Below are positions 6,639 through 9,258 of a DNA stretch of 64,000 nucleotides, in pieces (position 1 is the first letter of the stretch; every line of letters begins with the position of its first letter). Where the stretch lies: NCBI RefSeq assembly GCF_964355755.1, contig NC_092675.1, positions 29,536,912-29,600,911 on the forward strand, given 5' to 3'. The notes beneath the pieces were generated by a model that made no database searches, was not told the DNA's origin, and was given only the letters and a program-made list of their open reading frames with translations. Made by a program: the position numbers and the translations under genes. This DNA is from Antedon mediterranea. Taxonomy: Eukaryota > Echinodermata > Crinoidea > Comatulida > Antedonidae.

Positions 6639-9258
6639 TTACATTGCATACTTTTGAGTCCATTTTCTGGCTTTTGATATGTATTTCTCTTTATTATTTT
6701 TAAATGTTCGAGCAATGTCCGGGACAAGTGGGTCGTCTGGATTAGGGTCATTCAATAAAGAGCATATTGACAGCAACACTATGGAAATAAATAACACAAT
6801 TTGTATTTGGTGGGTACCTGCCTACCAATCAATTTTTGTCTTTGTGGGAATAGTCATAATATCTACTGTAAAGGCCAATTTAGACGAGTGGTAATGGTAA
6901 TAAAAATATTGAATCTATGTCATTTATTATGACCATTTACACAAAACGCAGAGCGGACAGGTGGTTTACGCTCAGAATAGTTACAGATTCTACGTGGGAC
7001 AAGCTACGCAGTTTTCCGCTTACCGTTACTGCTCGTCTGTGTAACGTGACTGGTGAATAGTCCTAAATATAATTATTGAATATGGCTGAATTTATTATGA
7101 TAAATAACCATAAACTAACCTTTAGACGTGGTCAATTCTGGTGACCACTGAGACCGCAGAATGTCTAAACCAATACTACCATTTGCATTGATATTTGGGT
7201 GATAAATTTTTGTTGTGAACGCAACCTAGAATGAGATGAAATAAACATTAATAATTAATATTCATAGCATTCATAAAAAACAACACTTTAAGTTCAACTT
7301 AATAAATGTTTGAGAAATGTTAAACCCTTTATTTAAACTGCATCTTAACGCATTTAATGGGAGGAGGTGAAATACATTACACTAAATCACATTAAACTAA
7401 ACAAGATTGAAAAATGAAATTTTGTGTTTATCAATTGAAACCGACTTATTTACATTAAATCTAAATGAAACCATTTATTTAGTTTAGTTAGAGTACTGCA
7501 TCTTTTTTACACTGCATACATTTTTACAACTTGTTATAATTTTCAACAAGTTGTACTGTAATGTAACATCTTGTTTTCCCGATTTATTACATGTTTTCAT
7601 ACAAATCTTGGGAGAAAAGTATTGTAATTATACAGTTGAGGGAGCTATTTGATTATTATATTATTAGCATAACATACTGTGATTAAGATAGTCAGTTAAA
7701 TACCAGCACAAACTTGCTTCCTGATGGTGAGATTTTAAACAAAATTTCCCTCACACTAGCACTAACTTGTTACAAGTTGTTACTTTTTTTATGTGATGTG
7801 AAAAGGGCTTTAAATAGACAACCTCTATGGCATAATACTAAATGAGACTAGTCTGGCTGAGTGGAACTTTTAGCTTCATGCATTTGTCCATCTCCATGCT
7901 AATATAACATAGATACAAAAAAAATAATTCTATTCTCAACTTGGTGTCATTACTAAAGCGTGGTTTCCACTAGCGACGCAACCTAACGCAACCCACGCAA
8001 CATAACAAAATGCCCTTCCAATAATTATGTTTGCCCTCGCCTGCGTGAAATCAAACCTGTTTGTTGCGCATCAACATTAGTTAAGTTGCCGTAGACTTTG
8101 ACCTGGTTCACCCTGCATACTTTTGAGTACTCGCTGTACTATGTTTTCCAGTGTTCTCTTGCCATGCGTTGTTGCGTGAAATCAAAATCAAAACGACATA
8201 TCGATGCACTTATGATTATGCAATACAGAACATTACGTTGCGTTCTAGTGGAAACCACGCTTTACTGTAGTGTTTCATACAATTTGCTTACCTTGGGTGG
8301 TTTAAATGGATAATCAGTTGGAAAATCTATAGTTAAAATGAACACACCTCCTGTATAAGGACTGTCAGTCTGAAAACAACAATTATCAATTATTTACTTG
8401 CTTTACTTACTAGAATCCAGGAACTCAAAAACATTGTGGTAAAAATTTATAAATCAAAATTACTTAAAATATTATTGTTTCTCAATTTTAGTTTGATATT
8501 ATTGTTTTCTGATGACATAATACAGCATACTCTCACTGAATAAAAACAATGCAAATGATGACCAATTTCAAGAATACATGTTTTTCTTTGTGCTATGCTT
8601 CATTGAGCAGCTATGAAATACACGTAATCAATAGGGCAAGTCGTCATTTGGACTTTATGTGATGTGCCCATATGAACATGATGTCATATCACTACCATAT
8701 TTGGGAATATTACTACCATATTTGGCCACATCACAACTAGTTTGATAGTGTAGACAGAGCTTTAGAAACCAGCAAAACTCTGTTGATGTGGGGAGCAATA
8801 TTCCTGCATGCACATGGTGGATTAACAAGAAATACTTTAGTAAGTCGTAGGTCGTCGCAAATGAACAGCATCCTATTAAATCCGGTTTAATAAGTTCATA
8901 CTTAATTATCTTAATGAAATACTTACAGGACCCATTATTCTTGCTTGCCAATTAAACACTGCAAGTGAATTGAAAGGTAATTGTTAAAAGAAAGTTAATT
9001 AAATTTTTAATTTAATTTAATTGTAAAATCTTTACAAACGATAGAAAAATAACACATTTATGATACAGAAAATGAAAGATAATGGATGATTCTGTATTGA
9101 TGATGTTATCATCATGTTTGGTTGAGACATATACAATGTATTATTTATTTATGAGTAATAAAGACTTAGTATAGATAGGCCTAGATGAACTTACAATTGT
9201 CTCCCACTGGTCCTGCAGAGCATTTGGGTGGTAAGTCTCTACCTAGATCTTGTAATTC
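6639..9258 (-). CDS. UBE2D-like E2 ubiquitin-conjugating enzyme paralogue, active-site Cys replaced by Gly
   Basis: Five coding exons in minus-strand order: 9195-9258, 8927-8958, 8292-8369, 7120-7225, 6639-6778. All introns are GT-AG and all phases join. The 139 codons align without gaps to UBE2D residues 9-147 and the exon borders match those I know for UBE2D genes. Recognisable blocks are [59 protein letters not shown] and the C-terminal WTQKYAM. The HPN motif with Asn77, Phe62, Asp87 and Asp117 are kept. Residue 85, the thioester cysteine, is Gly (GSIGLDIL). Ala96, in the RING-contact loop, is Glu; further changes include T36R, N41T, H55D and C111N. UBE2D is normally almost invariant in animals, so this is a divergent paralogue. 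Retained introns exclude a processed copy. The first exon (residues 1-8) is not firmly located; a weak option is ATG at 9503-9505 (five codons, donor GTAAAT). It may act without catalysis, like UEV proteins, or be a young pseudogene. Confidence 0.85.
6871..7050. mobile_element. MITE family C, copy C1
   Basis: About 180 bp. Ends resemble AAGGCCAATTTACACAGACG in inverted orientation; the interior carries GGGACAAGCTACGC and TTTTCCGCTTACCG. It lies in the last intron of the UBE2D-like gene. Related to C2 and C3. Confidence 0.75.
7954..8264. mobile_element. MITE family B, copy B2 (complete, 311 bp)
   Basis: Ends TAAAGCGTGGTTTCCACTAG and its inverted partner CTAGTGGAAACCACGCTTTA. The TA at each edge is compatible with a TA target duplication. 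It lies in an intron of the UBE2D-like gene and stops 27 bp from the donor side of exon 8292-8369. Confidence 0.85.
8652..8763. mobile_element. MITE family A, copy A2 (left end lost)
   Basis: The right end (AGTTTGATAGTGTAGACAGA) and interior match A1; the first 20 or so bases of the left terminus are missing. It sits in the intron between exons 8292-8369 and 8927-8958 of the UBE2D-like gene. Confidence 0.8.

Follow-up and report, generated by a model that had tools for sequence, protein, structure and literature searches.

The window (the whole 64,000-nucleotide stretch that was analysed, C6:29536912-29600911 in the 354 Mb assembly) carries on its minus strand a complete UBE2D-like gene, here called copy D, whose six exons encode 147 codons from ATG to TAA (Table 1). 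The initial annotation had described five exons with clean splice sites; exons 2 to 6 agree with it, and all five introns are bounded by GT and AG, but the first exon had been missed. Once exon 1 is included, all 147 codons of the frame are accounted for, with neither a stop nor a frameshift. The glycine that had been noted in place of the catalytic cysteine is encoded by GGT at 7171-7169, and the Ala96 to Glu replacement, also noted earlier, by GAA at 7138-7136. The translation retains the HPN motif (H75 P76 N77), as annotated, together with Ser22, Pro61/Phe62, Asp87 and Ser94/Pro95. No ubiquitin thioester can form without Cys85, and copy D is predicted not to be an active E2, the catalytic cysteine being absent though HPN is present.

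Table 1. Exons of copy D, the segment duplicated with it, and the other UBE2D genes (positions in the window unless given as C6)
Feature	Position	Strand	Remarks
Copy D, exon 1	11298..11321	-	codons 1-8 (MALKRLQT); ATG, GT donor, aligns to the first exon in B and in C
Copy D, exon 2	9195..9258	-	
Copy D, exon 3	8927..8958	-	
Copy D, exon 4	8292..8369	-	7 D-specific changes in 78 bases
Copy D, exon 5	7120..7225	-	carries HPN, codon 85 GGT and codon 96 GAA
Copy D, exon 6 and TAA stop	6639..6778	-	
Duplicated segment of copy D	4012..11583	-	common to copy C (inverted, C6:29522631-29533664), partly to copy B (C6:29510512-29515797)
Copy A	C6:29506307-29497141	-	Cys85
Copy B	C6:29515574-29512459	-	Cys85
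Copy C	C6:29522893-29530961	+	Cys85, Ile83

The top phmmer matches of the copy D protein are E2 D1/D2, spanning residues 1-147, and its best match among solved structures is UBE2D1 (2oxq, E = 8e-80, gapless, 120 of 147 residues identical). The UBE2D name, alone or in a fusion, is carried by 59 of the best 60 of 312 matched solved sequences, the remaining one (1z2u) being named 'E2 2'. On these scores the resemblance to UBE2D is far beyond chance. The full length of the closest UBE2D match and the introns common to the Cys-bearing UBE2D copies mark copy D as UBE2D by descent; the dead paralogue that had been proposed is thus borne out by Gly85 in a complete UBE2D frame and by Cys-bearing copies on the same contig. 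The Pfam profile UQ_con scores copy D at 170 bits against 186 bits for copy B, which suggests by homology that the UBC fold has been retained with glycine at position 85. Membership of the UEV lineage (UBE2V/TSG101 descent) was considered and rejected, since 59 of the best 60 of the 312 solved matches bear a UBE2D name and the introns are those of the UBE2D copies.

Four UBE2D genes, copies A to D, lie on C6, each with 147 codons, equal exon lengths and no frameshift. The search for a second, canonical UBE2D recommended in the initial annotation turned up three Cys-bearing genes. Searching the genome with UQ_con yielded 47 matches at exon level and searching it with the copy A protein 46, those at the UBE2D level coming solely from copies A to D; neither search found a fifth UBE2D in the assembly, in which N stretches could hide copies. 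The nearest other match to the copy A protein, on C2 (72% identity over 53 residues), is presumably UBE2E. When the DNA of intron 5 and exons 5-6 of copy D served as query, only copies B and C appeared as genes among the matches listed, and 38 of the 41 rows represent one dispersed repeat with matches of roughly 155-200 bases. This repeat, of about 180 bases, occupies 6867-7044 in intron 5, and has at least 38 further genomic matches at 82-88% identity (40 of 1464 candidates scored).

Over alignments of 5.2-5.5 kb with gaps counted, identity is 92.1% for B-C, 90.8% for B-D and 96.6% for C-D. Copies C and D lie as an inverted pair, their genes 12.6 kb apart, and in copy C about 3.4 kb of additional sequence separates the exon 1 and exon 2 regions as an insert. 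B, C and D have introns in common and are recent duplicates. The inverted arrangement, the 12.6 kb spacing and the high C-D identity over 5.5 kb are what a false duplicate in the assembly might resemble, and a base error could in principle have produced the GGT codon. An artefact of either kind is hardly credible, as a read error would not cluster 22 substitutions in exons and a fold-back copy would be nearly perfect, whereas 17 indels in the alignment, as well as the insert, set C and D apart.

Copy A is old but has the same exon structure, and its divergence from copy B (dS 1.52, dN 0.072) reads as the outcome of long purifying selection. Together with copy B it is possibly the main housekeeping UBE2D, because no more canonical copy was found. 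It carries Ser107 and a C-terminus of Phe-Ala-Cys in place of Tyr-Ala-Met. Gene conversion from this divergent copy was ruled out for copy D, since A and D are separated by about 63 synonymous changes, compared with 2.5-3.5 for D against B or C. Copy C has kept Cys85 but shows S83I close by, in addition to L3S and A23V.

Between the recent copies, nonsynonymous (N) differences outnumber synonymous (S) ones: 10 N and 0 S for B-C, 23.5 N and 3.5 S for B-D, and 24.5 N and 2.5 S for C-D. The B-C count suggests that copy C may also be under altered selection. The dN/dS check recommended in the initial annotation gave 1.95 for D against B and 2.87 for D against C, values not near 1, although coding sites alone fail to reject omega = 1 for copy D (p = 0.08). 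The N:S splits for D alone point the same way (20 N to 2 S, p = 0.06; 14 N to 1 S, p = 0.08; these splits and that of the clade below were counted manually in the codon table). Because the coding sites alone are only suggestive, the case for selection depends on the surrounding non-coding DNA as a yardstick.

This yardstick was taken from a three-way alignment of B, C and D, which starts 400 bases ahead of exon 2, ends within the 3' flank and omits columns gapped in any of the three copies. D-specific substitutions were counted at 22 of 420 positions in exons 2-6, 21 of 2553 in introns and 12 of 1857 in the 3' flank. With exon 1, which has no D-specific change and was added by eye, the contrast is 22/444 coding against 33/4410 non-coding positions (Fisher p = 6e-10), and 20 of the 22 coding changes are nonsynonymous and 2 synonymous. 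A conservative set, which omits codons 41, 42, 114, 131 and 147 and one change in codon 55, leaves 14 securely D-derived nonsynonymous changes; their rate (14/343) exceeds both that of all non-coding positions (33/4410, p = 3e-6) and that of introns 1 (3' end), 2, 3 and 5 (15/1511, p = 2e-4). Even when the non-coding segment with the highest C-D divergence (42/1553) is taken as reference, nonsynonymous differences between C and D (24/343) are in 2.7 fold excess (p = 5e-4). The non-coding mutation spectrum predicts 24% synonymous changes and a coding to non-coding mutability of 1.04, so base composition is not the cause of the coding excess.

A joint codon and non-coding likelihood model, with synonymous rates tied to the non-coding rate on the tree ((C,D),B), gave an omega of 9.0 for D and rejected omega = 1 (LRT p = 4e-11); a single raised omega for the stem, C and D came to 6.9 (p = 1e-11). 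On a star tree, which counts changes common to C and D on both branches, the result for D held with all non-coding sites (p = 1e-9), with introns 1-3 and 5 (p = 2e-9) and with ambiguous codons dropped (p = 4e-8), while the omega of C ranged from 1.0 to 4.0 under alternative yardsticks. C-specific changes (5/444 coding, 20/4410 non-coding) do not differ significantly (p = 0.07).

These rates bear on the view, raised in the initial annotation, that copy D is a young pseudogene, an unconstrained, drifting copy whose frame has so far escaped a stop or frameshift by chance. In favour of this view, the catalytic residue is lost, the absence of a stop is unsurprising after 22 changes (P = 0.25), and the N:S ratio of D alone fits neutrality (p = 0.06-0.08). 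All D-specific, C-specific and B-specific indels in the alignment lie outside exons (11 of 11, 6 of 6 and 30 of 30), but for D this is weak evidence, because 11 indels predict only about one in exons. On the other hand, neither the reading frame of 147 codons nor the splice sites of the five introns are broken, and D-specific coding change runs at about 5-7 times the rate of the local introns and flank, a departure from the neutral coding rate that appears on the non-coding yardstick. Neutral decay cannot outpace the neutral rate, and the whole clade shows 24 N to 1 S (p = 0.007); we therefore consider a plain pseudogene unlikely.

The same excess would arise with slower change in a functional gene if the exons were older than they seem, that is, if gene conversion had homogenized the introns of B, C and D while selection kept the exons apart. 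Introns 2, 3 and 5 show about the same degree of similarity among all three copies, whereas B stands much further apart in intron 4 and the 3' flank, and certain codons of D look ancestral: codons 41, 42, 55, 114, 131 and 147 match A or other UBE2Ds wholly or partly where B and C have another state. This pattern suggests that B and C may have exchanged sequence. Nevertheless, the synonymous sites within the same exons are nearly identical, which argues that the exons are young, and conversion would have had to skip five separate short exons. Older exon divergence is thus an improbable account.

The positive selection reading has to allow for uneven divergence along the locus. C-D non-coding divergence is 1.0% in one segment and 2.7% in another, and 1.6% in the main segment, exons included; the segment that holds the promoter region and exon 1 along with some of intron 1 was tested separately, and two segment rows, of 302 and 229 aligned bases with mismatches of 11.6% and 12.7%, were excluded as off-register matches to a local tandem duplicate. 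The model that raises the stem, C and D (lnL -7983.3) beats that which raises D only (lnL -7998.6) with an equal number of parameters; in the D-only fit on the ((C,D),B) tree, branch B has zero length. By this comparison the acceleration is not specific to the copy without Cys85, as the common omega fits better and the Cys-bearing copy C appears partly accelerated; the faster change would have begun either ahead of the cysteine loss or alongside it.

The substitutions of copy D alter two surfaces. At the E3-contact loop, A96E is likely to weaken some E3 contacts at least, because an A96D change in AtUBC28, a UBE2D-like plant E2, abolishes XopL-dependent ubiquitination (PMC3554608); A96E may also simply abolish E3 binding. 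On the backside face, copy D shows P17L, A19P, Q20K and T36R. PMC4996978 lists residues 16-19, 22, 23, 34-36, 38, 49 and 147 of AtUBC8, a UBE2D-class plant enzyme, as contacts with the ubiquitin-fold protein MUB, at a site that overlaps non-covalent ubiquitin binding. Across B, C and D, 6 of these 12 residues are changed against 19 of 135 others (p = 0.006, post hoc), and for D alone the enrichment is not significant (p = 0.06-0.07). The Gln20 position, which is lysine in D, matters in UbcH5B for stimulation by backside ubiquitin (PMC6349121).

Taken together, we think it fairly probable that copy D is an intact, recent UBE2D paralogue with C85G that positive selection has driven into a new, non-catalytic role. 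UBE2D would have been duplicated and the D copy would have lost the thioester cysteine, with the fold presumably kept while the E3-contact loop and the backside face were altered and positive selection pushed the surface to change. Copies such as A and B would stay working enzymes, and D would probably act as a binder, whether regulator or decoy, that keeps ubiquitin, an E2, an E3 or an attacker of UBE2D occupied. Candidate settings are an arms race with a pathogen protein directed at UBE2D, a reproductive conflict and a role as a new regulator of an E2 or E3.

One specific form of this reading is that copy D mimics UBE2D and absorbs a protein that a virus or bacterium uses to hijack or attack that enzyme. 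It offers the strongest reason for fast change among the forms of the reading and agrees with rapid change after duplication with catalysis lost; a bacterial effector, XopL, does work with UBE2D-class plant E2s (PMC3554608). However, a reproductive or other conflict would give the same picture, and we hold this form to be unlikely. At its boldest, the reading would make copy D a dead, positively selected UBE2D decoy or antagonist that arose within about 1% of neutral divergence and whose backside and E3-contact faces track an opponent, an arms-race pseudo-E2, which we consider possible but rather unlikely.

Copy D has much in common with UBE2D/UbcH5 (E2 D1-D4, Ubc4/5), namely sequence, full length, HPN and exon-for-exon paralogy with three Cys-bearing copies, but it departs from them in Gly85, Glu96 and the altered backside residues, and its coding sequence outpaces the local non-coding DNA while UBE2D is nearly frozen. 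UEV proteins (UBE2V1/Mms2 etc.) likewise have an E2 fold and no catalytic cysteine; they are not known to have HPN or a complete C-terminus, both of which copy D, recently derived from UBE2D, retains. Copy D may work like a UEV though it is not one by descent. UBE2V1/2 are described as dead E2s (PMC12919000). Human UBE2NL is, like copy D, a lineage-specific E2 paralogue, but it derives from UBE2N, whereas D is a UBE2D with introns and a signal of positive selection. UBE2NL is not known to have introns or the active cysteine. It has no mouse orthologue and a function stated as unknown (PMC11593721), and is expected to join UBE2V2 in K63 chain formation (PMC12112672). BRCC45 differs from copy D in being a complex subunit and not a UBE2D duplicate. 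It is of separate, older descent. Its UEV domains are presented in PMC10211241 as a pseudo-E2 serving as a scaffold.

In the open PMC literature we found no paper on a UBE2D with C85G and, among the titles and abstract openings listed, no report of a positively selected dead UBE2D nor of an inactive or echinoderm UBE2D of this kind. Dead E2s are known mostly as old, stable partners. If our reading is right, a UBE2D has been caught soon after the loss of its cysteine, with Cys-bearing sisters adjacent and an above-neutral rate, and would show the birth of a pseudo-E2; it also raises the question of which conflict makes a near-invariant enzyme alter its surface.

Further features, several of them repeats, lie elsewhere in the window; a repeat-sequence search of the open PMC literature gave no paper. 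Fragments of LINE-type reverse transcriptase lie just upstream of copy D at 11866-12609 (minus strand), 13428-14163 (plus) and 16259-18067 (plus), and some of this sequence recurs close to copies B and C. Positions 21-1674 hold a long inverted repeat of 40-base tandem units, whose arms (83-278 and 1398-1593) are 93% complementary. Tandem repeats at 26949-27476, 27974-28887 and 42111-42662 open long frames in several phases, from which no gene was inferred. On the plus strand at 55399-56169, an open frame matches a PH domain with 26.5 bits (cut-off 25.1).
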